54,188 nt of DNA from Flavobacteriales bacterium (lineage in GTDB: Bacteria > Bacteroidota > Bacteroidia > Flavobacteriales_D > JAHECK01): NCBI GenBank assembly GCA_024641785.1, contig JAHECK010000006.1:1-54188 (forward strand), in the 5' to 3' direction. Shown here piece after piece: positions 27,606-44,787 of the stretch. Positions within the stretch are counted from its first letter, which is position 1. Each line of letters starts with the position of its first letter. The notes under the pieces were generated by a model that saw only the letters and a list, made by a program, of their open reading frames with translations, searched no databases and was not told the origin of the DNA. Both the position numbers and the translations under genes were made by a program.

Positions 27606-28136
27606 CTATTTTTCTTTTGGTCTGAAAATTTTCATTTGTGAACGGTCCGTTTCTAAATGTGGACCACCGATCAGATCAACGCAATATGGTACAGCGGGGA
27701 AAACTACTGATAGACATTCTTCTATTGCTTTTGGTTTGCCAGGAAGATTTATTATTAAAGTGCTTTTACGCGTTCCTGCAGTTTGACGAGAGAGAATGGC
27801 AGTAGGAACAAATTTAAGGCTTTCAGCACGCATCATTTCGCCAAATCCTGGTAACATTTTATCACACACCATCTCAGTGGCCTCGGGTGTAACGTCTCTA
27901 ACAGCTGGACCTGTACCTCCTGTAGTAACGACCAAAGCGCATTTTTCCACATCCGCCATCATCCGCAGTGCTTCCGCAATTTGGTCTGCTTCGTCAGGAA
28001 TAACACGATATACAGGAGTCCATTCTGAGATCAGGTATTTATTTAACAATTCAACTACTTTCTTACCAGGAATATCTTCATAAATTCCTTGACTAGCGCG
28101 ATCGCTTACATTGATTACACCGATTTTAATTTCCAT
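27606..28136 (-). CDS. mog: Molybdopterin adenylyltransferase-like protein (MogA/MoaB family)
   Basis: IKIGVINVSDRASQGIYEDIPGKKV, ALVVTTGGTGPAVRDVTPEATEMVCDKMLPGFGEMMR, LIINLPGKPKAIEECL. Confidence 0.92.
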   Translation of the reverse strand: MEIKIGVINVSDRASQGIYEDIPGKKVVELLNKYLISEWTPVYRVIPDEADQIAEALRMMADVEKCALVVTTGGTGPAVRDVTPEATEMVCDKMLPGFGEMMRAESLKFVPTAILSRQTAGTRKSTLIINLPGKPKAIEECLSVVFPAVPYCVDLIGGPHLETDRSQMKIFRPKEK

Positions 28137-28300
28137 CCTGCAATTAACTAAATTTCATTGATTTCTACTATGATAAAGAATGATTTTGAAGGCATATTCA
28201 AATAAAATCGGATAATATTGATTGTCATTTTAATTAGCGAATTTAAAACAGATGTAAAAGGTGAATTGTACTTTAAAAAAAATAATTACCTTCATCCCTT

Positions 28301-29497
28301 ATGGAACAGACTGTTATGGTTAAAAAGGTAGAAGATTTTGTGTTTGAATTATTCAAATCATCAGATAATTCTAATTTATTATTCCATGATTACAAACACA
28401 CCTATGATGTTGTATCTGCTGCAATTGAAATAGGAAAAGGATCAGATCTTAGTGAAGATGACCTTGAGCTTCTTCAAATTGCTGCCTGGTTTCATGATAC
28501 AGGGTATTTCCAAAGTCCAAAAGGTCATGAAAAAATAAGTGCTGAAATCGCTGTTAAATTTTTGAAGAGTGAAAATTTTGATCCTAAAAAGATTGAAAAG
28601 ATAAAGGCATTAATTGAGGTCACAGAAATTGGAAAAAAACCTCAAAATCACTTAGAGGAAGTAATGTGTGATGCTGATCTGCAAAACCTTGGTACCAGCG
28701 ATTATAAAAATCGGGCTAATTTATTAAGAGATGAGGCTCTGACTATACATGGAAAGCAATTAGACGAATTGGCCTGGTTAGAATGGGAATTGAAATTTTT
28801 AAACGAGCATAAATATTATACTCGATACATGAAGTTGAATTACAATCCTATTAAGAATAATAATATTGTACAACTTAAACAAGAGATAAAGAAACTTAAG
28901 GATAAAAATGAAGAAAGTCTTTCAAAATCGAATATAGAAAGTGAAAAAGTAAATGCATATGAATCATTTTTACCAGGTATGGAATACATGTTTCGTGAAG
29001 TTTTGAGAGATCATATTAGTTTGAGTGTTATTGCGGATAATAAAGCTAATTTAATATTGAGTGTAAATGCAATTATTATTTCAATTACAATATCTGTTCT
29101 GATACAAAATTATGATGTCAATCCAACTTTAAATATTCCCACCGTCTTTTTACTACTTGTAAGTGTTTTGACTATGGTATTTGCTGCTTTATCAACAAAA
29201 CCAAGTAAAAACAATGGCAAATTCACTAAGGAGGACGTTTTAAATAAAAAAGCCAATCTATTGTTTTTCGGTAATTATCATAATACCTCCTTTGAATTAT
29301 TTGAATGGGGAATCAAAGAAATGATGAATGATAAAGATTATTTGTATCATACAATGATCAAAGATCTGCACTCAATTGGAAAAGTACTGAACAAAAAGTA
29401 CCACTTTTTAAGAATTGCCTATCTTTTATTTTTGTATGGAATTACGATCTCTGTTGTTCTATTTATGATTTTCATGGCCTATGCAAGTAGAGCCTAA
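28301..29497 (+). CDS. HD-domain phosphohydrolase fused to C-terminal Pycsar-effector-like (PycTM/DUF5706-like) transmembrane module
   Basis: HD motifs: H33 in YKHTYDV, AWFHDTGYF (H65-D66), CDADLQNLG; coiled-coil linker ~186-225; membrane module SLSVIADNKANLILSVNAIIISITISVLIQ, FLLLVSVLTMVFAALSTKP, NLLFFGNYHNTSFELF, C-terminal TM. Confidence 0.8.
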   Translation: MEQTVMVKKVEDFVFELFKSSDNSNLLFHDYKHTYDVVSAAIEIGKGSDLSEDDLELLQIAAWFHDTGYFQSPKGHEKISAEIAVKFLKSENFDPKKIEKIKALIEVTEIGKKPQNHLEEVMCDADLQNLGTSDYKNRANLLRDEALTIHGKQLDELAWLEWELKFLNEHKYYTRYMKLNYNPIKNNNIVQLKQEIKKLKDKNEESLSKSNIESEKVNAYESFLPGMEYMFREVLRDHISLSVIADNKANLILSVNAIIISITISVLIQNYDVNPTLNIPTVFLLLVSVLTMVFAALSTKPSKNNGKFTKEDVLNKKANLLFFGNYHNTSFELFEWGIKEMMNDKDYLYHTMIKDLHSIGKVLNKKYHFLRIAYLLFLYGITISVVLFMIFMAYASRA

Positions 29498-29623
29498 GCC
29501 TAATTCTATTCTTTATTGATCGAAGATTCAAAAAGTTTACTGAAAGCTACGATCAAACTAAGGAATAGGCGAACAGTCAGTTATTTATACTTATTAAAAG
29601 CACTTTTGAAATCGGCATAAATG

Positions 29624-30028
29624 CTATTCCGGGTCCTGATCAGAATTGATAAATTGAAAGATAAAAATGATCCAGCCAATGATCATTAAAGTACCACCTA
29701 AAGGAGTAATTGGGCCAAGTAGTTTCCGAAATGAAAATAGCATGTAATAGTCGGCGGCTACTAAAGAATAAATTGAAATTGAAAACAATAGAGAGCCCAA
29801 TAAAATAAACCAATAGAAAATTTTAAATTTTTTCTTTCTGAATTTATGATAATTAAGCCCGAGTATTAAGATTGTGATACCCGAATACATTTGATATCGG
29901 ACGCCGGTCTCGAAAGATGAAAGGCTTGATTCGCTGAGCACTTCTTTTAAAGCATGTGCTCCAAAGGCTCCAAGTATAATAGCGAAAAGAATAAGTAAAG
30001 CGCCGGAAATTACAACCCCTTTTTTCAT
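29624..30028 (-). CDS. DUF423-family small membrane protein (YgdD-like)
   Basis: ILFAIILGAFGAHALKEVLSESSLSSFETGVRYQMYSGITILILGL; PLGGTLMIIGWIIF. Confidence 0.9.
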   Translation of the reverse strand: MKKGVVISGALLILFAIILGAFGAHALKEVLSESSLSSFETGVRYQMYSGITILILGLNYHKFRKKKFKIFYWFILLGSLLFSISIYSLVAADYYMLFSFRKLLGPITPLGGTLMIIGWIIFIFQFINSDQDPE

Positions 30029-30063
30029 ATAATGCGACTAGTTAAAGAGTACTAAAATAAAAA

Positions 30064-30090
30064 AGTCCCGCGCTAGCGGGACTTTTTTTT
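30064..30090 (-). terminator. Rho-independent terminator ending the 33405->30089 lipoprotein operon
   Basis: AGTCCCGC (30064-30071) GCTA GCGGGACT (30076-30083) flanked by A-run and T-run; the stop codon of the 30089 gene (TTA on + strand) lies in the adjacent T/A tract. Confidence 0.85.
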
Positions 30091-30661
30091 AGTTGTTTTC
30101 CATTTTCAGCATTTCAGCATTGAAAGTTTCTTTAAACTTTTCGTAGTCGTAATCTATTTTTAAACGGTCATCTTTCGAAAGGCGATCATTTATTTTAGTT
30201 ATTAATTCTTCACCGGATAATTCAATTGCCAAATAGGTCTTGTATTTATTATCAGGAGTTTTAGTCATTTTTTCACAAATGGTTTTTGTACCACTTAATT
30301 GTTGATTAACTACTTCTCGGGTTAAACCTTCAAATCGTTCTTCAACTTCTTCTTGATTGTTTAATTCTCTTGAATTCACATAGTTATCAATAGTAGCTTT
30401 AATTGTAGTATTAATCGCTCCTGCTAATTCAGCTTTTGCATTGTTCAATGCTTTTTTCTTTGAAGTCATTTGATCTAAACTTTCTCCTATTGCGTTTGAT
30501 CTGAAGAACTCATTATTACTAAAATAATCAGGTCCGCTACAATATGTATTTACAAGAACTTCGCCATCTGGAGCGGCTTCTTTCTTTCCTTTACATGAAT
30601 AAATTCCTGCCGAAAGTATCAAGCCGGTTAATAGTAGAATAAGGGTACGTGAATTTTTCAT
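30089..30661 (-). CDS. Lipoprotein of unknown function (first of trio by coordinate)
   Basis: Lipobox LTGLILSAGIYSCKGKK; start likely MKNSRTLIL at 30661. Confidence 0.75.
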   Translation of the reverse strand: MKNSRTLILLLTGLILSAGIYSCKGKKEAAPDGEVLVNTYCSGPDYFSNNEFFRSNAIGESLDQMTSKKKALNNAKAELAGAINTTIKATIDNYVNSRELNNQEEVEERFEGLTREVVNQQLSGTKTICEKMTKTPDNKYKTYLAIELSGEELITKINDRLSKDDRLKIDYDYEKFKETFNAEMLKMENN

Positions 30662-30731
30662 TTTCTTATGTATTAGATTGTTTATTATTTTATTTTCAGA
30701 AATCATGCCAAAGTTTAGAAGGTTTACGTCT

Positions 30732-32045
30732 TTAATCTCGACAATGTTCCATTATTAATTTTTGAATCCAGTTATATTTAATTTGTTTCACTGCATTTTC
30801 AATCGCTTTATTATCGGCACTCATTCTATTTGTATGCACTCCTTTTACATCAGGCCAAATTTTTTGTTCTATCAAATTTTTCTGACTGTTATAAACATTC
30901 ATCTGTATAGTGCAACTACTCGTATAGAAATCATCTGTTTTTCCAATAGCATCTAATTTAAATATTGCTTCTAAAAATACATCTGCCATTGCCGAATCCT
31001 GACTGGTTTTCGCTCCTGCTTTGTTTATTATATCTTGAAATGCTCCTTTGTCTTTAGATGTTGTAATATAAACAGTGGGTCTATTAACCTTTATTTCTAT
31101 TGTAACAGAGTCATATTCTTTTTCAAATAGTCCGGCTATAATTGGATCTTTAATAAGATCAGATGTACTTACCCAGGCATTCATTAAAGAAGGCACTTCT
31201 TCGTAGTAATTAATTTGTAAGTTAAATTTAATGATGCCATTTTCATCCGAGATCAATTTTTGAGATGCATACGAATTATACTTCACTCGAACGGGAATAT
31301 TTTCTACCGGGATACCATTGTATTGTAGTGAAAACGTTGCTGCTTCAGTATAGCAATTTGACCATTCTAATAGAATCGTGTTTTTAGATTTTATTAATTT
31401 TAATTTTGTTAAGCGATCATCAATTTTTGAAAGAATAAAATTCCCAAGATAGATGGTTTGACTATTTCTGCTTGTTTTTAAGGGATCATTTAAATAGGGT
31501 TTTATCGCATCTAGCGCTTGTAAAAGGTATTCAAATTGGAGTTTATACTCAACTTCATTTTCACTTTGGTCTAGAAAAAATAGTGATTTGCTAATGGCTT
31601 TTTCTTTAAGTTCAGCTTGAAGTTCTTTATATTCTGATTTTGATAGGCGATAAAGCACCCAATATTCATTATTATCCACCCAGGATTCAACCGCTTCAAA
31701 GTTGCTAATATTATTTTTCACATCGATTCGGGTAGTTGCCTGATAATTTTCAATAAACGCTTGATTGCTTTCTTTTTGACTTAAAACAGATTGTGCATCG
31801 ATACTTACCTCTATCTCTGATGAAAGATCCTCCAGGGCTTTATTCTTTGCAACTTGCTGAAAATCATTTTTATGTACATTAAGATTTGCATTTCCAATCC
31901 CATAATAATAGGAAGATGAGATCGGTTTTTGCATTACCCAATCCGGTCTTGGATTATTTAAAGCCGCTTCTTGTGTTTTTTTAGTAGCACTGCAAGAAGC
32001 TATAAATAATAGGAGAGCTATAATGATGTATAATTTATTTAACAT
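30732..32045 (-). CDS. LPP20-family-like lipoprotein
   Basis: MLNKLYIIIALLLFIASCSATKK lipobox; PDWVMQKPISSSYYYGIGNANLNVHKNDFQQVAKNKALEDLSSEIEVSIDAQSVLSQKE resembles LPP20/LPP20-like N-terminal region. Confidence 0.65.
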   Translation of the reverse strand: MLNKLYIIIALLLFIASCSATKKTQEAALNNPRPDWVMQKPISSSYYYGIGNANLNVHKNDFQQVAKNKALEDLSSEIEVSIDAQSVLSQKESNQAFIENYQATTRIDVKNNISNFEAVESWVDNNEYWVLYRLSKSEYKELQAELKEKAISKSLFFLDQSENEVEYKLQFEYLLQALDAIKPYLNDPLKTSRNSQTIYLGNFILSKIDDRLTKLKLIKSKNTILLEWSNCYTEAATFSLQYNGIPVENIPVRVKYNSYASQKLISDENGIIKFNLQINYYEEVPSLMNAWVSTSDLIKDPIIAGLFEKEYDSVTIEIKVNRPTVYITTSKDKGAFQDIINKAGAKTSQDSAMADVFLEAIFKLDAIGKTDDFYTSSCTIQMNVYNSQKNLIEQKIWPDVKGVHTNRMSADNKAIENAVKQIKYNWIQKLIMEHCRD

Positions 32046-33405
32046 AGTAATAGCTAAATTTTTCTACTTCTGATTGAACTTGTTTTGCGAGATCAACAAA
32101 AGCATCATTTGTTAAAGCCTCAACACTTTTAATTTTCTGTCTACTACTTAAATATTGGTCCATTTGCCTCTTTTCATTATTGCTAGTGACTACCTTGCCA
32201 TCTTTTGAAGGGAAAAGTACTGAAGCATCTCCATCATAGCTATAATATTGTACCTGATCACTAATCTCATTTGAGAAAATCTTGGAAACCTCTATTTCGC
32301 CTGTGGTTAATGAAATAAGTTTAATTTGAACGGATACCATCACACTATTTCTCTGATTATATTCAAAATAGACTGTTCTTTTATATTGAGTTTCATAATA
32401 CTCCTCTCCGGCTTCATTCGTCTTTTTAACTTTAAAAGATTTAAATCCTTCTTTCTTTTGTCTTGAAAGTTCACCCGTTTTTTTTGTCATATCAAGCAAT
32501 GTTCCACCAAGTAACCATTTTACTCCCAATAACTTTCCTGCTTCTGATGCAGTAGATTCATTTACTGCTCCAGATAGATTTATTTTTTGTTCATTGAGTA
32601 ATTGCTCGTAATTGGTACGATCAATCACCTTTAAAAAAGGATCCTTTGTTTGACTTAATGCATCTAAATTATAAGCTTCAGCCTTTTTTTGAGCATTTTG
32701 ATATTGAGTGGCATTTTCAAAAGGAATTAAACCAACACTTACTAATCCTAATTGTAATGCTAATTCTTGTAATTCCTTTGAGTCTTTATAATCAGGATTT
32801 GTACTTATTACTTCAAGAAAGGCATTATAAGCGCTTCGATATTTATTCTCTTCTAAGAACTGAACACCTTTCCGATAGTAGGGTTCAGTATAGGCGATAT
32901 CTTTAAGCTTCTTAGTGTCCTTATAATCAGGTTCTAAGCGAACTATTTCTTTAAACATAGCTTCTGCATTATCATAATCTTCTTGATCTAAATATTGCAG
33001 ACCTTTTTCGTAGGTTTCAATTAAATAAGTCTTTTTTATTTCAACGAAATCTTCATTGTAGTGGGAAGGAATAGTTAGATTTACAGAAACTATTTCGAGG
33101 GAATTTTTATATTGTTTAGCAGCCAAAAACGCATTAATGGCTTCTTTTTTATTTCCTAGCTGACTTTCTTGAAAAAATGTTGAAAGCTTGTCATTTAAAA
33201 CTTGTCCACCAGTTCGGGTAAGTGCTTCTCTGGCTTCGATATATTCCGGTTTTTTAATTAAAGCTTGTTTGTAATAATTGGAAGCTTCGAGATTGAGTTG
33301 GGCAGCTTCCATTTTACTCCCTTTTTTATATAAAGACTTTGGGCTATTGCAAGAGATCAGAAAGAGAATGGACAGGAAAATAAAGAAGTAATTAGTTCTA
33401 TTCAT
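32035..33405 (-). CDS. TPR lipoprotein with CsgG-like C-terminal region
   Basis: Lipobox ILFLISCNSPK; TPR-like repeats (AEAMFKEIVRLEPDYKDTKKL, AYNAFLEVISTNPDYKDSKEL); VGLIPFENATQ...FLKVIDRTNYEQLLNEQ...GKLLGVKWLLGGTLLDM is CsgG/LpoB/FlgO-like. Confidence 0.65.
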   Translation of the reverse strand: MNRTNYFFIFLSILFLISCNSPKSLYKKGSKMEAAQLNLEASNYYKQALIKKPEYIEAREALTRTGGQVLNDKLSTFFQESQLGNKKEAINAFLAAKQYKNSLEIVSVNLTIPSHYNEDFVEIKKTYLIETYEKGLQYLDQEDYDNAEAMFKEIVRLEPDYKDTKKLKDIAYTEPYYRKGVQFLEENKYRSAYNAFLEVISTNPDYKDSKELQELALQLGLVSVGLIPFENATQYQNAQKKAEAYNLDALSQTKDPFLKVIDRTNYEQLLNEQKINLSGAVNESTASEAGKLLGVKWLLGGTLLDMTKKTGELSRQKKEGFKSFKVKKTNEAGEEYYETQYKRTVYFEYNQRNSVMVSVQIKLISLTTGEIEVSKIFSNEISDQVQYYSYDGDASVLFPSKDGKVVTSNNEKRQMDQYLSSRQKIKSVEALTNDAFVDLAKQVQSEVEKFSYYYVK

Positions 33406-33600
33406 AATAAATAATTATGCAGTTTAAAACTTAAAGACAATTTTTATGCCGATAGTGATTAATAAATTAATTCTAGTGTAATTTAGCGGTAAAAATGAAC
33501 CCTTGGTAATTGGAATAACTTGATTTGTTAACATGCTATATTGGAAAGTATATTATTGATTTAACAAGAGATATTCTTAAACCAAAAGAAATTTACGTAT

Positions 33601-34965
33601 ATGAAAACCATTTTAGTGTTAGGTGCTGGTAAATCAAGTGCGACGCTTATAAGCTATCTTATTGAGAATGCGGAGAAAGAAGATTGGAAAATCCTTGTAG
33701 CTGATAGGGATCTGGCTATGATAGTTGACAAAACAAATCAAAGCTCTTTTACAGAATCCTTTGCTCTTGATATGATGAATAAAGAGTTGAGGAGGCCTTT
33801 AATTGAGCGGAGTGATATTGTTATTTCAATGTTACCCGCGTCATTGCACATGCCTGTAATTAAGGATTGTATAAAGTTCAAAAAAAATATTATCACCCCT
33901 TCTTATATGACTCCGGAGATCAAGGAGCTTGATAAAGATGCTAAAAATGCGGATATATTAATTATGAATGAGTTGGGATTAGATCCTGGTATAGATCATA
34001 TGTCGGCGATGAAAATTGTGGATCGAATTCGCGATAAAGGAGGGGAGTTAACCTATTTTGAATCATTTACCGGAGGTTTAGTTGCTCCTGAAAGTGACAA
34101 TAACCCCTGGAATTATAAGTTTACCTGGAATCCGAGAAATGTTGTTATGGCCGGTCAGGGAGGAGCAGCAAAATTCATTCAAAGAGGTCTTTTTAAATAC
34201 ATTCCTTATAATCGCCTTTTTAGAAGATCTGAAGTAATCGAGATTAAAGAGTATGGGAAATTTGAAGGTATTGCAAACAGAGATTCTTTAAAGTACAGGA
34301 GTATTTATGGTCTGGATACTATTCCGACGATCTATAGGGGAACCTTAAGAAGGGTTGGATTTGGGAAAGCATGGAATTACTTAGTCCAGTTAGGGGCTAC
34401 TGAAGATGGTTATATCATGGAAGGGTCAGCAAATATGACGCACCGCGATTTCACTAATTCATTCTTAGCATACAATCCCTATGATTCGGTTGAATTAAAA
34501 TTCCGTCATTATATGAAAATAGACCAGGATGATGAGGTTTGGGATAAGTTAGTGTGGCTAGGGTTATTTGAAGATACCCCGATCGGAATAAATAAGGATG
34601 CAACTCCTGCGCAAATTCTTCAGATAATAATGGAGAAAAAAATGCAGTTAGAGCCCCATGATAAAGATATGATCGTAATGTATCATAAAATCGGATATAA
34701 AATAAAGAATAAGCATAGTGAGATCAAGTCTTGGCTTGTTTTTATTGGAAAAGACCAGAAGTACACCGCTATGAGTGATACGGTTGGTTTGCCTTTAGGC
34801 ATATTCACTAAAATGTTATTGCGAGGAGAAATTAATTTAAAAGGTGTTCGTATGCCTATTATGAAGGAAGTCTATCTGCCTGTTTTGGGCGAATTGGAAA
34901 AGCATGGAATCATTTTTAAAGAAAAAGTTGAAGAGATGAGTGAAGAAAAAGCGAAACTCCAATAA
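33601..34965 (+). CDS. Saccharopine dehydrogenase-family protein
   Basis: N-terminal Rossmann ILVLGAGKSSATLISYLIE; ITPSYMTPEIKELDKDAKNADILIMNELGLDPGIDHMSAMKIVDRI; FTWNPRNVVMAGQGGAAKFI. Confidence 0.9.
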   Translation: MKTILVLGAGKSSATLISYLIENAEKEDWKILVADRDLAMIVDKTNQSSFTESFALDMMNKELRRPLIERSDIVISMLPASLHMPVIKDCIKFKKNIITPSYMTPEIKELDKDAKNADILIMNELGLDPGIDHMSAMKIVDRIRDKGGELTYFESFTGGLVAPESDNNPWNYKFTWNPRNVVMAGQGGAAKFIQRGLFKYIPYNRLFRRSEVIEIKEYGKFEGIANRDSLKYRSIYGLDTIPTIYRGTLRRVGFGKAWNYLVQLGATEDGYIMEGSANMTHRDFTNSFLAYNPYDSVELKFRHYMKIDQDDEVWDKLVWLGLFEDTPIGINKDATPAQILQIIMEKKMQLEPHDKDMIVMYHKIGYKIKNKHSEIKSWLVFIGKDQKYTAMSDTVGLPLGIFTKMLLRGEINLKGVRMPIMKEVYLPVLGELEKHGIIFKEKVEEMSEEKAKLQ

Positions 34966-35141
34966 TACAATAACCTTGTCATTTAAAATTGGTTCGATTC
35001 TTATTGATTGTCAATGCATTATTTATTTTTTCGGCGATTAGTTGAAATTCAAAAAGTATTTTGAATAAAAGATTTTATTATTCAAGATAATATCAGATAT
35101 TTGCACGCTCAAAAAAGAGGATATAATTAAATACTTAAAAA

Positions 35142-35816
35142 ATGCCAACAAAGATCAGATTACAAAGATTTGGTAAAAAAGGAAAACCTTTTTACCACGT
35201 CGTGATTGCAGATTCGAGGGCTCCACGGGATGGAAAATATATCGAAAAAATTGGTATTTACAACCCGAACACGAACCCCGCTGTAATTGAATTAGACAAT
35301 GACAAAGCACTAAGCTGGTTACAGACCGGTGCTGTCCCAACTGAAACAGTGAACGCGATTTTAAAATATACTGGAGTAGTATATAAGAACCACTTATTAA
35401 AAGGGGTTGCTAAAGGAGCTTTTACTGAAGCTGAAGCGGAGAAGAGATATCTTGCTTGGGCAAATGAAAAAGAAGCTAAGATTCAAGCGAAACGCGATGG
35501 TCTTTCTGCTGGTGAAGCTGCTGAAGCTAAAAAGATCTTAGCTAATGAAATAGAGATCAATAAAAAGAGAGCTAAAGAAATTGCAGCTGCTCGTATTGCT
35601 GAGTCAGAAGCGAATCAAGTAGCAGAAGTAGCTGGTGCAGCGGAAGCTAAATCAGATATGGAAGCGGTTGTTGAAGAAGCTCCAGTTGTTGAAGCGGTTG
35701 TTGAAGAAGCTCCAGTTGTTGAAGCTGTAGTTGAAGAAGCTCCAGTTGTTGAAGCGTCTGCTGAAGAAGCACCTGCTGCTGAAGAATCAAAAGATTCTGA
35801 AGAGAAAAAAGATTAA
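35142..35816 (+). CDS. rpsP: 30S ribosomal protein S16 with long acidic C-terminal extension
   Basis: MPTKIRLQRFGKKGKPFYHVVIADSRAPRDGKYIEKIGIYNPNTNP; then Ala/Glu/Lys-rich tail ending in VVEEAPVVEA repeats. Confidence 0.96.
   Translation: MPTKIRLQRFGKKGKPFYHVVIADSRAPRDGKYIEKIGIYNPNTNPAVIELDNDKALSWLQTGAVPTETVNAILKYTGVVYKNHLLKGVAKGAFTEAEAEKRYLAWANEKEAKIQAKRDGLSAGEAAEAKKILANEIEINKKRAKEIAAARIAESEANQVAEVAGAAEAKSDMEAVVEEAPVVEAVVEEAPVVEAVVEEAPVVEASAEEAPAAEESKDSEEKKD
35661..35780 (+). repeat. 30-bp tandem repeat (about 4 units) in the rpsP 3' coding region
   Basis: 35661-35690 and 35691-35720 are identical (gaagcggttgttgaagaagctccagttgtt); 35721-35750 differs at two positions; 35751-35780 is degenerate. 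Confidence 0.95.
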
Positions 35817-35829
35817 TTAGATTGTCTCT

Positions 35830-36357
35830 ATGGAAAAAGAGCAATGCTATAATTTAGGATCTGTTTCAAAGGTTCAAGGAATTAATGGCAAGCTTATTTT
35901 ACGATTAGAGGTCGATTTTCCAGAAGAATACTCGAAATTGGAATCAGTTTACATTGAAAAAAATCGTAAACTGATTCCTTTTTTTATTGAAGAAATTACC
36001 ATTTTACCGAAAGGTTTTGCTCGAGTCAAATTTGAAGATGTTGACTCTGATGAAATTGCCCAAACGCTCGTTAAAGGACAATTATATTTACCAATTGAAC
36101 AATTGCCGGAATTAAAAGCGGATCAATTTTATTATCACGAAATAGTTGGTTTTAAGGTTATTGATAGTGAGATAGGAAATATTGGAATTGTTATCGAATA
36201 TCTCGAAATACCCGCCAATCCTCAATTATTAGTTGATTTCAAAGGACATGAAATTCTAGTTCCTATCAGTTCACATTTTTATAAAGGAATTGATAAAAAG
36301 AAAGAAGAAATTTATGTTACACTACCTCCCGGATTGGTAGAAGTAAATATTGGCTAA
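35830..36357 (+). CDS. rimM: 16S rRNA processing protein RimM
   Basis: YNLGSVSKVQGINGKLILRLEVDFPEEY; QFYYHEIVGFKVIDSEIGNIGIV; HEILVPI; follows rpsP. Confidence 0.93.
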   Translation: MEKEQCYNLGSVSKVQGINGKLILRLEVDFPEEYSKLESVYIEKNRKLIPFFIEEITILPKGFARVKFEDVDSDEIAQTLVKGQLYLPIEQLPELKADQFYYHEIVGFKVIDSEIGNIGIVIEYLEIPANPQLLVDFKGHEILVPISSHFYKGIDKKKEEIYVTLPPGLVEVNIG

Positions 36358-36359
36358 TT

Positions 36360-37073
36360 GTGTCCAGGCCATTTCAATTTAAAGAATTTACTATTGTTCA
36401 AGATCATGCTGCGATGAAAGTAGGCACTGATAGTGTTTTACTTGGAGCATGGGTCGATCATTTAAATCCTAAGAAAATACTGGACATTGGATGCGGAACC
36501 GCTTTATTGACTTTAATGATGGCTCAACGCTTTCCGGACGCTTTGATTTCGGGAATTGAAATCGATCCTCAAGCAATGATCGATGCCAGATATAATGTGA
36601 AGTATTCCTCTTGGAATGACCGAATCGATCTTATTGAGGGAAGTATATTTGAAACCCCTATCCCTCAACTTTTTGATCTCATCATTTCGAATCCTCCTTT
36701 TTTTTCAATTGATACTCCATCTCCGATTGGAAACAGAGCATTGGCCAGAAGTGGTTCAGGATCTTTATTAAATGAATGGATCATTGAGGCTAAAAAGAAA
36801 ATGCTCCCATCAGGACGATTTGCTATTATACTGCCATTAAATCAAAAATCTCAATTGGAAAATATAGCAAAGGAAAATAAATTATTTATTCATCGTCTTT
36901 GTCTTGTAAAGCCTAACAGAAGGAAGGATGCGCATCGATTTATGGTCGAAATGAAGTTAGTTAGCTGCGATCAATTGAAAAATGAATCCATAACGATCGA
37001 AAAAGAAATTCGTCATGAATATACTGATGAATACATCAAACTAACCAGGTCCTTTTATTTGAATATGGACTAA
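36360..37073 (+). CDS. trmN6: tRNA1(Val) (adenine(37)-N6)-methyltransferase (TrmN6/YfiC family)
   Basis: GTG start; MKVGTDSVLLGAWVD, ILDIGCGTALLTLMMAQR, DLIISNPPFF (NPPF motif), NRALARS. Confidence 0.93.
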   Translation: MSRPFQFKEFTIVQDHAAMKVGTDSVLLGAWVDHLNPKKILDIGCGTALLTLMMAQRFPDALISGIEIDPQAMIDARYNVKYSSWNDRIDLIEGSIFETPIPQLFDLIISNPPFFSIDTPSPIGNRALARSGSGSLLNEWIIEAKKKMLPSGRFAIILPLNQKSQLENIAKENKLFIHRLCLVKPNRRKDAHRFMVEMKLVSCDQLKNESITIEKEIRHEYTDEYIKLTRSFYLNMD

Positions 37074-37150
37074 AAAAGGCTTGAAGCTAGGTGCTCTATG
37101 CACGAAGTGAAAAAGGAGGTCTTTAGCACTTTTCTATAATCAACTAGATT

Positions 37151-38140
37151 CTAAAACTTAGCACAAGGAATTACTCTCCTTCGTTTTGTATTTCTGCGAT
37201 TATTTTTATTAGCCCATTCATAGGAAATGGTAATTTCATGAGATCCTCCTGTGTTTAAGCCTAATTGAGAAATAGTAATATCATAGCTGTAACCGACATT
37301 CATTCCGTTTTGACTCCATCCTACTAATATGGCAACGGCATCACGTCCAACACCGGTATTTTTATTATAAACGACAGGTAAACCACGATACCACACTCCA
37401 ATGGTTACTGCATTATGTTCATAATAGGCTCCTAGATCAAGCTGATCGAATTTCCCTTGTGCCTTATAATTAAATGCAAAAAATACATATTCTCTATTTA
37501 AGGACTTTTGACTTTGCAGTCTTAATTTATACCCCCCATGTAAAGAGAATTTCATTGGTAATGGACTTTTATCATTTAGCAATGATTGATCAGGAGTATT
37601 TATATGGGAAAATGTCATCCCTGCCCAATATTTTGGTGCATAAAGTAATATCCCAGCCCCAATATCAAAGAATTGTTTTCTTTGAAGATCAATAGGTTCG
37701 GCAGTAGAAGGATTTCCTGTATTTAACTGATCACCAAAAGTAAGTCTACTAAAATCGATCCCTCTTTGTCCATATCCAATTTCAGCAGCAGGTCTTATGA
37801 AGAGATCCCTTTTGATTTTTAATTCGTAGGCATATAGGAATTTTGCACTTGTAGTAGATAGTCCTCCAGATCCGGCACGGTCATAATATATATCTACTCC
37901 AAAACCTGACTTCATCATTGGGAAGAATTGATCATAAGATAATGAGTAAGTTTGAAATGCACCCGGAATAGAAGGCCATTCAACTCTTGATGCCATAATT
38001 GCTCGACTTTGTGTTGAAGTACCCGTAAATGCAGGGTTTAGGTACAAAGGATTCGCATAGAACTGCGTAAATTGCGGATCCTGTGCCTTCGAAATCAAGG
38101 TCATCAATAGTAAACAATATGTTAGAATATATCTTTTCAT
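37151..38140 (-). CDS. PorP/SprF family type IX secretion system membrane protein (second paralogue in window)
   Basis: KAQDPQFTQFYANPLYLNPAFTGTSTQSRAIMASRVEWPSIPGAFQTYSLSYD; C-terminal GYSYDITISQLGLNTGGSHEITISY. Confidence 0.92.
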   Translation of the reverse strand: MKRYILTYCLLLMTLISKAQDPQFTQFYANPLYLNPAFTGTSTQSRAIMASRVEWPSIPGAFQTYSLSYDQFFPMMKSGFGVDIYYDRAGSGGLSTTSAKFLYAYELKIKRDLFIRPAAEIGYGQRGIDFSRLTFGDQLNTGNPSTAEPIDLQRKQFFDIGAGILLYAPKYWAGMTFSHINTPDQSLLNDKSPLPMKFSLHGGYKLRLQSQKSLNREYVFFAFNYKAQGKFDQLDLGAYYEHNAVTIGVWYRGLPVVYNKNTGVGRDAVAILVGWSQNGMNVGYSYDITISQLGLNTGGSHEITISYEWANKNNRRNTKRRRVIPCAKF

Positions 38141-39714: not shown

Positions 39715-42700
39715 TTATCTAATTAAGGTAACATCACCAGCATCATTAATTACTGTTCCTTGAACAGTTCTGGCTTTTACTTTCCATACATAGACATCTT
39801 GTTGAGATAATCTGCCTTTGTAGTAACCATCCCATCCAATATAAATGTTTGTTGATTCAAAAATTAGTTCTCCCCATCTATTAAATATCAATAACTGATA
39901 TTCTTCAATCCCTGCGGAGAATACGGGATGGAATACATCATTCAGATTTTCACCTGGATTTTGAGGATCATAATATCCACCATTGGATCCATTTGGATCA
40001 GGGGTAAAGGCATTTGGAAAATCAACATTCCCGCTAGCCTCAGCAAATACTATATTCTCAGAATAGAATGTGCTCGGACAGTTATACTCATTATTTGCTA
40101 TTAATGTTACTGTTTGCCAACCGGTAGTAGTATAAAAATGGATCGGATTTTCTTCAATTGAAGTTAAACCATCTCCAAAATCCCATTGATAATTAGTTGC
40201 ATTTTGTGAAAGGTTAAAAAAGGTAACAGGATCATTAGGAATATACACCGTTGTAGTTGAAGGGGTGAAGTAGGCAAAAGCTTGCGGATAAACTGTAATT
40301 GAATCGATGTGTTGTTCAGTATCTTGCCCACCTTCCCCTATTGCTGTTAAAGAAACAACATAGTTTCCAGCATTATAATAGGTATAGGTTGGGTTTTCTA
40401 AATTTGATTGGCCACCATCTCCAAAATCCCAAACATAAGAACTTGCGTAAAGGGATAGATTAGTAAATTGAACGACCATTGGAGTACATCCTTCATCACT
40501 TCCAATAAAATTAGCGATAGGAACAGGTGCTGCAATTTGAATTATTTGTTCAGCAATTGAGCTACATGATCCATTGTTTAAAGTGAGTGTGATCGTATAA
40601 ATCCCCCATGTAGCATAAGTATGCTCTGAAATTAAAGGATCATTGGATGTTTCACCATCTCCAAAAGTCCATGAGTAGTTTACATCTCCGGAATTTGATA
40701 GATCAAAAAGATCAATCGTAGCACTTGGATAGGTTTGACTTACCGGTGTAGCTGTAAAGATGGCTTCAGGAACCTGAAGCACGTAGATATCCTGATACAA
40801 GGTATCGGCACAGCCTTCATATCCTCGCGCTATATATACTAAGGAATAGATGCTGTCGCCCTGGACAAAGTTATTATAAGTATGTGTCGGTTCGGCGATA
40901 TTATCAAAGAATCCATCACCATATTCCCAGAAATAGTATAATGCTCCTATAGTATTGTTTTCCACATTTATAGTTAATGGATTACAAGCGATGGTATCAA
41001 AATTCACATCCAATACCATTTCAGGTAATACGCTAAGTATTTGTGAATACTGGGCTACACATCCACTAGCCGAAGTTGCGATCATATTGATCGTTCGATT
41101 GATTGGCACAGGTGTGGTATTCGTATAAACAACTGAGTGGAATTCCTGATCATTTGTAGATGTTTGTCCATCCCCATAATCCCAAAAATAGAGTGAAGCT
41201 CCTTGTGTGGTATTATGAATTAATGCTTCCACGGGATAACAATTTATTATAGTATCGATCTCGAAAAAGGCAATAGGCTGAGCTAATATCGTTATATCTT
41301 TAAATGCGGTATCAACACAATTTGCTGATGAAGCAATTAGCTGCACTGAAAATATTGAATCGTTTAAACTATTATTTACATAATTATGGATAGGATTAAT
41401 AGAAATAGATTGAAGTCCATCTCCAAAGTTCCATAAGTAATTATTAGCGCCGGTTGAATTATTTACATATTGAATTTGAGCAGGCGAACACGCACTGTCA
41501 GGTGAAGTAAATGCTGCCGTAACTTGAGGGAATACCTGAATATTTTGTAAGCTGGTATCTCTACAACCGAAATTAGTTTCAACGAAAAGTTGGGTTTGAA
41601 ATGTTAGAGGTATTCCTCCCACATTATAAAATAAATGAGTATGAATAGAATCACCTGTGTTGTTAATAGGTGTGTTATCTCCATAATTCCATTGATAAAA
41701 TGTTCCACCTATTGATTGATTTTCAAAATCTACGGGCAAAGGTGAACATCCTGTAGTATTACCCATCACAAATTGTGACAATGGTTTTGGATGAATAGTT
41801 ATATCATGATAAGCTGTATCTCTACATCCAAATGGGGAAATTGCATATAAAATAGAGGTAAATGTAGTATCATCCACCCAAGAGTTATTGCTATAAATAT
41901 GTTGAGCATTTTGTGAAACTACAGTGTTTGATCCGTCTCCAAACTCCCATTCGTATTGATCTGCACCAATACTTTGATTTAAAAATACCGCATTCAATGG
42001 AGCACATCCATCATCCGGAGCTGTAAATTGCGCAACTACCTCGGGGAATACTTCAATAGTTTGAGCAATAGTATCTGTACATCCTTTGTCGGTTATTGAA
42101 ATTAATTGTGCTAAGTATTGCTGCGAAGTAGGAAGGAAGTTATTATAGACATGATTAATAAGTGAATTATTGGTTGTGTCATTATTCGTTCCATCCCCCC
42201 ATTTCCAAATATGTGTAATACCACCTGTCGAGAGGTTTTCAAATTCCACATCAAGTGGCGCACATCCTAAAGCAGGAATAGCATTCATAGCACTTGTAGG
42301 ATTTGGATGCACGATCACACCAGTAGAAGCCGTATCCGAACAACCAAAAGCATTGGTCGCAATTAAGACAGCAGTAAATGGCATTGAATTCGTTGTAAAA
42401 TTATAATAAGTGTGAGTAGGTGCCTGTTGATTTGATGTGTTGCCATCACCAAATTCCCAATACCATGCTACAGCACCATCATTAGCTGACTGAGGAAAAT
42501 TAACTGATAAAGGACTACATCCTGAATCAGGATTTGATACGATACTAAGCACTAATTGAGGATTTACTGATAAAGTATGAGTAACCGTGTCAGAACATCC
42601 ATTAGCGGAAAACGCAATCAACTGCACATTATAATTTTGGATAAATAAACTCGTATTTATAAAAACGTGAGATGGGTTAATTAAAGTCGAAATAGGTGAA

Positions 42701-44787
42701 CCATCATCAAAATCCCATTCATATGAAATCCCATTTATGGAATTATTAGTGAATTGAACCGACGCCGGAGCACAATTTGGTACAGGAGTATTTGTGAATT
42801 CAGCTAGTGATCCTGGATAAACAGTTACACTGCTGTTGGCTGTGTCTTTACAACCAACCGGTGAAGTAGCGATCAGTTGAACCAGATAAGTGGAGTCATT
42901 CGCTCCAATATTTATATAGCTATGTGTTGGATCTTGCATACCAGATATAAATCCATCACCAAATTCCCAAACATAATTATTTGCACCAATAGTATTGTTT
43001 GTAAAAGAAACATTTAAGGTTGTACAACCCGAATCCGGGCTGGCTACAAAGCTCACAAGAGGTTTTGGCTCTACTGTAATCGGGGTTAAGATGGTGGAGC
43101 TACAATTTGAAGTTTGAACCGTTAAGGTTACGGTAAAAGAACCTGCATTGATATATAGATGCGATGGGTTTTGTAAATTGGATGTATTTCCATCTCCAAA
43201 ATCCCAACTCCATGAAATGATCGGATCGACTACAGGAAAACTTGAAAGATCGAGGAAATCGGTCACTGCATCTTCACAAACCGTTGAAACTAAGAAATTA
43301 GCAACGGGAGATTGCCATACATTAACAACCTGATTAGAAATATCCGTACAGCCATTAGAAGAAGCAACTGTAAGTGTAACATTATAGAATCCCGGGGAAC
43401 TGTAAAACTGAGCAGGTGGTACTTGAAGGTTTGATGTATTACCGTTTCCAAAATCCCAGTTCCATGAAATTGCTCCACCGCTTGAATTATCGGTAAATGT
43501 TACCGTCATTGAATCACATTCATTATTATTAGATAATAAAAAATCTGACGTAGGAGTTGGCTGGACATGAATATTGACCGATGCAGTATCTGTACATCCG
43601 GATCCTGCAGCGGAAACACTTCCAACAAATTGAACATTATAATCTCCCGAATTTGTATAGCTATAATTTTGAACACCTGCACCCAGGCCTAACCATCCTG
43701 TTCCGTCGTCAAAATTCCATGAAAAACTATTAGGTGTATTTGCTATTATTGAACCAATAAAGGTAGCGACCTCATTTTCACAGACCGTATCCGGGAAAAC
43801 AGTAAGACCAACTTCAGGTGTTACCGTAATGAAAACCGTTTGATATGCTGTGTCTAATCCACAATAGGAACTATCGATCAACATAACAGTGTAAGCTCCC
43901 GGACCAGGAAAACCAAGTTGTCTGGGAGCGGTTGGAGGCCATGGAGTCCAATCAATAATAGAATCATATCCTAATCCCCAATAATCTCCAAAATTCCAAT
44001 ATTCATATCGTTGAGCTGAATTATCAGGTTGACAATTCATATCCGTTGTATTAAAGAATGTAAAAATGGTATCAGGGTAACAGAGAACCAGATCCGAAGG
44101 AGTAATATGGGCCGTATCTACATCCCAAGTATTAATAGTACCAAATGTACTGGTGGTAACCCCACAATAGTTGTCTGCCGTTAATGAGACCGTAATACCA
44201 CAACCTGAATTATTTGGAAGATAGGTATGGGTGACCATTTGCCCGACATTGGTATTATCGTACACTACAGGGGGCGAACCATCTCCAAAGTCCCATGTGA
44301 AAACAGTAGTCTCTGAAACAGGTTTACCTGAAGTTTGATTTGAATTATTTATAAATGAAAAATCTCCGGGAACACATACACTTAAATCGACTCCGAAAGG
44401 AATACCGATCTCGGAAGTTGTTTTTTCTTCCATTACCACTACACCAGTAATTTGACAACCGGGGAATAATCCGGGATCAGGAGTAAAGATGAGAATAAAT
44501 GTATCAACTGCAGCTAAATAAAGATGGTTTACTGAAAGGTCGGCAGGTCCAAATCCGGTACCTACCTGTAAGGGTGAACCATCACCCCAATCAACAGTGT
44601 AATTTCCAACGATCATGTTGGTTTGGAGAGTCAGAAAATAGTTTGCACCACCACATGAAACCCAATACGGAGCATCTGTAAAAACTAAGCTTCCATTTAG
44701 AAGTTCAGGGCATTGGGCATTCGTTTCTTTTAGCGAAAAGAAATTGAATGTCAATACTAAACTTAATAATAAGAAAACGTGTTTCAA
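39715..44787 (-). CDS. Giant PKD-repeat surface protein with T9SS type-B C-terminal sorting domain
   Basis: 1690 aa; signal peptide; roughly 18 PKD cores (WDFGDGNTSNLQNPSHLY etc.); C-terminus FPNAFTPDPNGSNGGYYDPQNPGENLNDVFHPVFSAGIEEYQLLIFNRWGELIFESTNIYIGWDGYYKGRLSQQDVYVWKVKA. Confidence 0.93.
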   Translation of the reverse strand: MKHVFLLLSLVLTFNFFSLKETNAQCPELLNGSLVFTDAPYWVSCGGANYFLTLQTNMIVGNYTVDWGDGSPLQVGTGFGPADLSVNHLYLAAVDTFILIFTPDPGLFPGCQITGVVVMEEKTTSEIGIPFGVDLSVCVPGDFSFINNSNQTSGKPVSETTVFTWDFGDGSPPVVYDNTNVGQMVTHTYLPNNSGCGITVSLTADNYCGVTTSTFGTINTWDVDTAHITPSDLVLCYPDTIFTFFNTTDMNCQPDNSAQRYEYWNFGDYWGLGYDSIIDWTPWPPTAPRQLGFPGPGAYTVMLIDSSYCGLDTAYQTVFITVTPEVGLTVFPDTVCENEVATFIGSIIANTPNSFSWNFDDGTGWLGLGAGVQNYSYTNSGDYNVQFVGSVSAAGSGCTDTASVNIHVQPTPTSDFLLSNNNECDSMTVTFTDNSSGGAISWNWDFGNGNTSNLQVPPAQFYSSPGFYNVTLTVASSNGCTDISNQVVNVWQSPVANFLVSTVCEDAVTDFLDLSSFPVVDPIISWSWDFGDGNTSNLQNPSHLYINAGSFTVTLTVQTSNCSSTILTPITVEPKPLVSFVASPDSGCTTLNVSFTNNTIGANNYVWEFGDGFISGMQDPTHSYINIGANDSTYLVQLIATSPVGCKDTANSSVTVYPGSLAEFTNTPVPNCAPASVQFTNNSINGISYEWDFDDGSPISTLINPSHVFINTSLFIQNYNVQLIAFSANGCSDTVTHTLSVNPQLVLSIVSNPDSGCSPLSVNFPQSANDGAVAWYWEFGDGNTSNQQAPTHTYYNFTTNSMPFTAVLIATNAFGCSDTASTGVIVHPNPTSAMNAIPALGCAPLDVEFENLSTGGITHIWKWGDGTNNDTTNNSLINHVYNNFLPTSQQYLAQLISITDKGCTDTIAQTIEVFPEVVAQFTAPDDGCAPLNAVFLNQSIGADQYEWEFGDGSNTVVSQNAQHIYSNNSWVDDTTFTSILYAISPFGCRDTAYHDITIHPKPLSQFVMGNTTGCSPLPVDFENQSIGGTFYQWNYGDNTPINNTGDSIHTHLFYNVGGIPLTFQTQLFVETNFGCRDTSLQNIQVFPQVTAAFTSPDSACSPAQIQYVNNSTGANNYLWNFGDGLQSISINPIHNYVNNSLNDSIFSVQLIASSANCVDTAFKDITILAQPIAFFEIDTIINCYPVEALIHNTTQGASLYFWDYGDGQTSTNDQEFHSVVYTNTTPVPINRTINMIATSASGCVAQYSQILSVLPEMVLDVNFDTIACNPLTINVENNTIGALYYFWEYGDGFFDNIAEPTHTYNNFVQGDSIYSLVYIARGYEGCADTLYQDIYVLQVPEAIFTATPVSQTYPSATIDLFDLSNSGDVNYSWTFGDGETSNDPLISEHTYATWGIYTITLTLNNGSCSSIAEQIIQIAAPVPIANFIGSDEGCTPMVVQFTNLSLYASSYVWDFGDGGQSNLENPTYTYYNAGNYVVSLTAIGEGGQDTEQHIDSITVYPQAFAYFTPSTTTVYIPNDPVTFFNLSQNATNYQWDFGDGLTSIEENPIHFYTTTGWQTVTLIANNEYNCPSTFYSENIVFAEASGNVDFPNAFTPDPNGSNGGYYDPQNPGENLNDVFHPVFSAGIEEYQLLIFNRWGELIFESTNIYIGWDGYYKGRLSQQDVYVWKVKARTVQGTVINDAGDVTLIR

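Follow-up and report, generated by a model that had tools for sequence, protein, structure and literature searches.

The window, a stretch of 54,188 nucleotides from a Flavobacteriales genome, carries on its forward strand an open reading frame with an ATG start (28301..29497) that encodes a protein of 398 amino acids with full-length homologues at 36-48% identity. Both flanking genes lie on the opposite strand, namely a mog-like MoCF_biosynth gene on the left (PF00994, 27606..28136) and a DUF423 gene on the right (PF04241, 29624..30028). These neighbours, and the absence of any cyclase-like reading frame from the 54-kb window, are as given in the preliminary description, which was based on the letters alone and regarded the gene as an orphan fusion of an HD phosphohydrolase to a membrane module of the PycTM type.

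The Pfam search of both halves that had been proposed there was run, and each half was matched. The HD family PF01966 matches residues 31-126 (E 5.1e-9) within an N-terminal domain of residues 1-180 (28301..28840, forward strand), and the PycTM family PF18967 matches residues 273-380 (E 9.4e-30; 103.6 bits at a cut-off of 27.2 bits) within a C-terminal membrane module of residues 223-398 (28967..29494, forward strand). The PycTM model of PADLOC also matches the protein (E 5.6e-16), as do, more weakly, the PADLOC 2TM 'Effector' models (E 5e-11 to 1e-3), and the membrane module covers the Pfam and PADLOC PycTM models almost end to end. An NCBIfam search gave HD matches that were all sub-threshold. 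The protein contains the FFGN and KANxxxSxNA motifs as well as the conserved catalytic residues. In an AlphaFold2 model built from 58 homologues (mean pLDDT 90.8), residues 1-180 are predicted to form an all-helical HD domain (pLDDT mostly 88-98), followed by a charged coiled-coil helix at 182-212 and a flexible linker at 213-222 with pLDDT below 50 (together 28844..28966, forward strand), and by long or membrane helices at 225-270, 275-299 and 345-397. Hydropathy gives three hydrophobic segments (248-271, 273-302 and 368-398). The coiled-coil linker and the layout of paired transmembrane segments plus a last one, both read initially from the letters, thus reappear in the model and in the hydropathy profile. 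HD and PycTM are fused in one 398-residue protein, and the matches to both are far beyond chance.

Active site, fold and membrane module

Eight residues of the HD domain (H29, H33, H65, D66, E77, D124, D126 and E145) are invariant in an alignment of 85 fusions. They include the first metal or catalytic histidines H29-x3-H33 (28385..28399, forward strand), which are invariant in 85/85 fusions, 13/13 solo HD proteins and 17/18 cyclase-fused HD proteins; the HD dyad H65-D66 (28493..28498, forward strand); and the downstream aspartates of D124-A125-D126, which are candidate metal ligands (28670..28678, forward strand). The catalytic residues as a whole are also kept in the 13 stand-alone and 17 of the 18 cyclase-fused members of the subfamily, the one exception being a truncated row. 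The motifs originally named for the HD assignment (H33, H65-D66 and CDAD with D124 and D126) are among the invariant positions. Because all catalytic residues are invariant in the 85 fusions, the alignment indicates that the HD domain of the fusions is under selection as an enzyme.

The H...HD...D pattern of metal ligands known from YpgQ/YedJ-like HD phosphohydrolases is present in the window protein, and the AlphaFold2 model, Foldseek and profile matches together confirm a predicted fold of this kind. A profile of the family's HD domains matched the solved structures 3b57 (6.7e-9), 3dto (1.2e-8), 2pq7 (4.8e-8) and YedJ 3gw7 (1.3e-6), with mammalian class I phosphodiesterases remaining below significance in the same search (E ~0.09-0.3); a phmmer search of PDB chains with the single fusion protein gave no match. 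Foldseek placed the HD domain nearest to 2pq7 (E 3e-4), then to lp_2664 and YpgQ 5dqv (E 6.5e-3, probability 1.00), and among viral models the confident matches of the fusion model were to HD domains only. YpgQ, of the structural neighbours the one studied best, is a (d)NTP pyrophosphohydrolase that acts on NTPs and dNTPs (PMC8177086), and BDPDE1, a plant YpgQ-like HD enzyme modelled on the template 3dto, hydrolyses cAMP and cGMP (PMC8431786). The fold therefore admits both cyclic and acyclic substrates and, since YpgQ is a pyrophosphohydrolase, is not in itself proof of phosphodiesterase activity. The window protein shares the fold and the ligand pattern with the YpgQ/YedJ-like hydrolases, including the plant enzymes AtCN-PDE1 and BDPDE1 (PMC8431786), but its HD domain is fused to a membrane module and shows an identity of only ~15-21% to its structural neighbours in structural alignments. 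The plant-derived phosphodiesterase motif of PMC8431786 has no literal match in the window protein, the R after HxxxH being missing. A stand-alone HD paralogue of 30% identity is encoded on another contig (C57) of the source genome.

Strong conservation in the membrane part of the fusions extends to many positions outside the membrane (NLLFFGN, DxxYLY, LGKVLxKKY). Foldseek returned no convincing solved structure for this module, and no nucleotide-binding domain is recognisable in the PycTM part.

Distribution and genomic neighbourhood

A scan of GTDB representatives yielded at least 527 encoded relatives, the best 80 of which are all full-length fusions with 36-48% identity from Flavobacteriaceae, Weeksellaceae, Saprospiraceae, families of Cytophagales, Chitinophaga and Ignavibacteria. 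In an even sample of the phylum, 99 of 392 Bacteroidota genomes have a PycTM match in a reading frame of fusion length. One family, which is probably Flavobacteriaceae judging from the named matches, has a PycTM match in 128 of 150 genomes, nearly all of different genera, and a matching frame of 384-490 aa in 120 of 150. The sequence alone had hidden how common the fusion is in Bacteroidota. Within the window's own order it was found in 5 of 100 genomes, and it is absent from a genome of the same genus, so that the universal synteny across the order considered in the preliminary description does not hold; the suggestion of a chromosomal housekeeping-type gene instead of a defence cassette agrees with a wide distribution and near-core status in another family. 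There was no fusion match in 50,697 phage genomes, and two plasmid records matched, one of them an 859-kb replicon of Persicobacter. HD-PycTM is apparently a widely conserved and so far unstudied protein of Bacteroidota: the open-access literature searched, outside which most subscription journals lie, contained no paper pairing PycTM with an HD domain and none on DUF5706.

In a tree of the membrane modules, which is unrooted and has support values from a quick search, nearly all fusions fall into one group with sub-groups of Saprospiraceae, Flavobacteriaceae and Cytophagales, and the window protein sits among the fusions of Flavobacteriales MAGs. The cyclase-adjacent PycTMs form a distant clade apart from the fusions; that the fusion is a housekeeping ancestor of the defence effector, as suggested in the preliminary description, is one possible reading of this unrooted tree. 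A few TM-only proteins inside the fusion group (among which L199, itself a fusion, does not count) look like products of later HD loss. Separately, a clade of TM-only PycTM relatives of 203-227 aa (L192 and L211-L218, at ~4.2-5.5 kb) has neither a cyclase nor an HD gene nearby and often adjoins the same pair of genes encoding ~247 and ~537 aa.

The same-genus genome (G001, 91% complete) has mog and DUF423 side by side (contig C71; L229, 3249-4246), separated by ~54-66 bp depending on the start codon. Starting at mog, the two genomes are collinear over that gene and the nine that follow (window 27606-38140), apart from the fusion gene, which alone is missing from G001. Beyond mog in the opposite direction they differ in gene order, with hisS/valS in the window. 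Given this precise empty site, the fusion gene was either gained in the window lineage or lost in G001. Its opposite strand and slightly lower GC content (27-31% versus 31-40% around it) suggest, without proving it, a gain at the mog/DUF423 site. The nearest fusion relatives (L042-L044 and L064) have the gene in other neighbourhoods. The L064 locus, which holds the nearest fusion by identity, also encodes distant relatives (27-30% identity) of a 1,690-aa reading frame of the window (39715-44787). Elsewhere in the window (30089-33405), genes for CsgG-like and LPP20-like lipoproteins adjoin a small lipoprotein-like gene (30089-30706).

Across the 85 fusion loci, a gene for an Omp85-metallophosphoesterase of ~1,230 aa adjoins the fusion in 52 (e.g. 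L096:3251-6910 and L032:4339-8031), and a polyphosphate kinase gene lies beside it in 18. We considered the Omp85-metallophosphoesterase as a functional partner but set it aside, as it is probably exported, given its outer-membrane Omp85 domain, and has no gene at the window locus.

Class III cyclases and known systems

A query search of 100 relatives from the window's order found 114 other good copies of the HD subfamily. For 74 of them a PF00211 class III cyclase match is found on the same strand at a distance of at most 250 nt, in long open frames in which the HD copy forms the C-terminal domain of the cyclase, and for five others such a match is found at up to 3 kb. Seen from the cyclases, 79 of the 147 PF00211 matches in these genomes have an HD domain of this subfamily within 3 kb. 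Frames that read through both domains encode, for example, proteins of 1,289 aa (propeller-cyclase-HD) and 527 aa (cyclase-HD). Class III cyclases that end in an HD domain are common in the order (e.g. L035:1918-5787 and L036:1872-3455), some of them with a two-component propeller sensor. Lysine and aspartate at the base-specifying positions of class III cyclases are typical of adenylate cyclases and point to ATP as the substrate. Both residues are present in the cyclase domains of the HD-linked proteins, and the cyclase-HD proteins of the order are likely cyclase-phosphodiesterase enzymes.

The fusion itself also occurs next to cyclases. In one locus (L118) a cyclase gene overlaps the HD-PycTM gene by 4 bp, and another (L032) has a tight collinear run of polyphosphate kinase, cyclase, a short SdiA-regulated-neighbour-like protein, the Omp85-metallophosphoesterase and HD-PycTM. 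Elsewhere the parts are separate: L195 has neighbouring genes for cyclase-TPR, PycTM and HD, three in all, and L198 has distinct genes for HD and PycTM that overlap. A cyclase was present in the flanks covered for 9 of 84 fusion loci, compared with 0.57 expected from genome averages, where the nine include two pairs of close relatives and leave out a MalT-like regulator in L069, and the expectation ignores relatedness; if six cases are counted as independent, the Poisson tail remains at 3e-5. The HD subfamily and HD-PycTM are thus recurrently coupled to class III cyclases, and the proposed tie of the HD domain to nucleotide second messengers draws support from members in frame with such cyclases and from cyclase operons outside the window.

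PycTM proteins are effectors of the Pycsar anti-phage system, which was reportedly presented by Tal and colleagues in 2021. Such effectors are also described in PMC11224242 and PMC12489823. Of the parts of a Pycsar system, the window protein provides the effector domain (PycTM, the alternative being PycTIR), and an adjacent pyrimidine cyclase (PycC) is lacking. Its membrane module is homologous to PycTM (Pfam E 9e-30; PADLOC E 6e-16), but a canonical PycTM is small, stands alone and has a pyrimidine cyclase beside it, and here a catalytic HD domain is fused to the module with no cyclase nearby. The genome-wide search for PycC-like cyclases suggested in the preliminary description did find two strong class III cyclases on other contigs (C85 and C36), the nearest in the source genome, but both carry the adenylate-type K and D residues. 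A setting among defence genes is customary for Pycsar without strictly defining it, and ten flanking proteins gave no PADLOC match to such genes. With no PycC partner, no PADLOC match in the ten flanks and no phage match, membership in Pycsar and a function in defence were not upheld: by these criteria the window locus is not a Pycsar locus, and the protein is probably a chromosomal signalling or housekeeping protein of Bacteroidota.

A set of operons (L201, L205 and L207-L209, at around 3-7 kb of each locus) encodes a response regulator, a response regulator-cyclase and a PycTM of ~190 aa, a Pycsar-like layout that is apparently under two-component control. The PycTMs of these operons are very distant from the fusions in the tree. 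With PF18967, such cyclase-adjacent PycTMs of Bacteroidota reach 58-67 bits and most HD fusions 100-135 bits; because the fusions score higher, the Pfam name 'Pycsar effector protein' appears to have been extended to a family that, within Bacteroidota, would consist mainly of non-Pycsar proteins. Counts of Pycsar systems made from PycTM alone would be inflated, since most of the Bacteroidota matches to PF18967 in this analysis are fusions to HD that lack a cyclase partner and show no sign of defence.

Two other comparisons are relevant. The synthases of Panoptes and CBASS are mCpol and CD-NTase. The 2TM effectors of these systems (PMC12657218, PMC12657230), whose PADLOC models also match the window protein, are small membrane effectors ruled by nucleotides; they are not known to carry an HD domain, and the window flanks have no match to a defence synthase. 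The Marchantia enzyme CAPE combines a class III adenylyl cyclase with a cAMP phosphodiesterase domain and requires two histidines four residues apart (PMC5159850), the same spacing as that of H29 and H33. CAPE establishes a class III cyclase and a phosphodiesterase in one chain as an enzyme design, and HD proteins related to the window protein in its order likewise unite a class III cyclase and an HD hydrolase, though with a different domain order. According to Pfam, the window protein has no class III cyclase in its chain; the partner of its HD domain is a receptor-like membrane module.

Candidate messengers and possible mechanism

Among the 99 fusion genomes of the phylum sample, 37 have no PF00211 match. 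We rejected a universal co-occurrence of the fusion with class III cyclases, as the association over the 392 genomes is weak (62 with and 37 without a match among fusion genomes versus 150 and 143 among the others; odds ratio 1.6, p 0.06, uncorrected for relatedness). PF00211 is also without a match in nine single-contig genomes whose fusions are full-length (38-43% identity), and since complete fusion genomes without a class III cyclase exist, the messenger does not always come from such an enzyme. Three other universal ligands were rejected from the same nine genomes: c-di-AMP, as DAC is absent from seven; c-di-GMP, as GGDEF is found in none; and CD-NTase products, as SMODS is found in only two. 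Six of the nine (G154, G267, G303, G366, G411 and G422) have no match to any of the four synthase families, and the ligand or substrate there must therefore be acyclic or the product of some other enzyme.

We tentatively propose that HD-PycTM is a membrane protein of nucleotide signalling which hydrolyses the ligand that it senses, or a related one, and so limits its own response. The cytoplasmic, metal-dependent HD domain of YpgQ/YedJ-like type would act at the membrane's inner face by hydrolysing a nucleotide second messenger. The PycTM-type module, joined to it by the coiled coil, would sense that nucleotide or a related one and change the state of the membrane. The enzyme would then limit or end the response, giving a self-terminating switch, a plausible form of which had been suggested in the preliminary description. 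We infer the hydrolytic activity, the identity of the ligand, its sensing by the membrane module and the self-limitation from the architecture and genomic context, and put the probability of this reading at roughly 0.42, because of the six fusion genomes without the four synthase families. A wider version, in which HD-PycTM is a phylum-wide receptor-plus-hydrolase whose messenger is made in many genomes by something other than a known cyclase, we regard as doubtful.

The main competing explanation is a house-cleaning enzyme tethered to the membrane, with an HD domain that would cleave acyclic nucleotides such as (d)NTPs or (p)ppGpp and a PycTM part that would be a mere anchor or oligomerisation module without gating. 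The position of the HD domain beside YpgQ and 2pq7 in Foldseek and the activity of YpgQ on NTPs and dNTPs (PMC8177086) fit this explanation, as do the retention of the fusion in single-contig genomes without class III cyclase, DAC, GGDEF and SMODS, and the core-gene neighbours in many taxa (Omp85-metallophosphoesterase and polyphosphate kinase). The same HD subfamily is, however, repeatedly fused to or found beside class III cyclases, and the membrane part is conserved beyond the needs of a mere anchor, so that we hold house-cleaning to be rather unlikely, if still worth more weight than the other rivals. A link to immunity would be kept if the protein were an orphan Pycsar-type effector, in which a distant cyclase makes cCMP or cUMP on infection and PycTM then opens the membrane, with the HD domain silencing the system in healthy cells. 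The PycTM similarity, the two class III cyclases elsewhere in the genome, the presence or absence of the gene within one genus and its low prevalence in the order are in keeping with such an effector; against it stand the adenylate-type residues of both cyclases, flanks without PycC or PADLOC genes, the near-core status in another family, where the cyclase-adjacent PycTMs form a separate, very distant clade, and the search of phages and plasmids (zero phage and two plasmid matches), which together make it improbable.

HD nucleotide hydrolases are known to serve as effectors elsewhere, SAMHD1-like dNTPases being an example. By this reverse logic, PycTM would sense a nucleotide and switch on the HD domain, and depletion of cellular nucleotides would be the effect. 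The invariant active site would suit such a role, but the solo and cyclase-fused HD proteins share that active site, which points to a messenger and not bulk dNTPs as the substrate, and the flanks offer no defence context; we give this explanation slightly less credit even than the orphan effector. Finally, the assembly of the source genome is fragmented, with 6% estimated contamination, and two genes might have been joined by error. The conservation of the fusion in other genomes, with 85 full-length examples that include single-contig genomes and isolates, refutes such an artefact and leaves it a negligible chance.

If the HD domain of the proposed signal protein does degrade the ligand of the membrane module, the fusion would amount to a nucleotide-gated membrane effector with its off-switch built in, and would offer a way to learn which roles such effectors have beyond immunity. 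Should the messenger synthase in many genomes be other than a known cyclase, the fusions would belong to an undescribed nucleotide signalling pathway of Bacteroidota in which PycTM-type effectors appear in a non-immune form. The fusion gene is carried by Flavobacterium, which is genetically tractable, and since some single-contig fusion genomes show no known cyclic-nucleotide synthase, a new messenger is directly testable.
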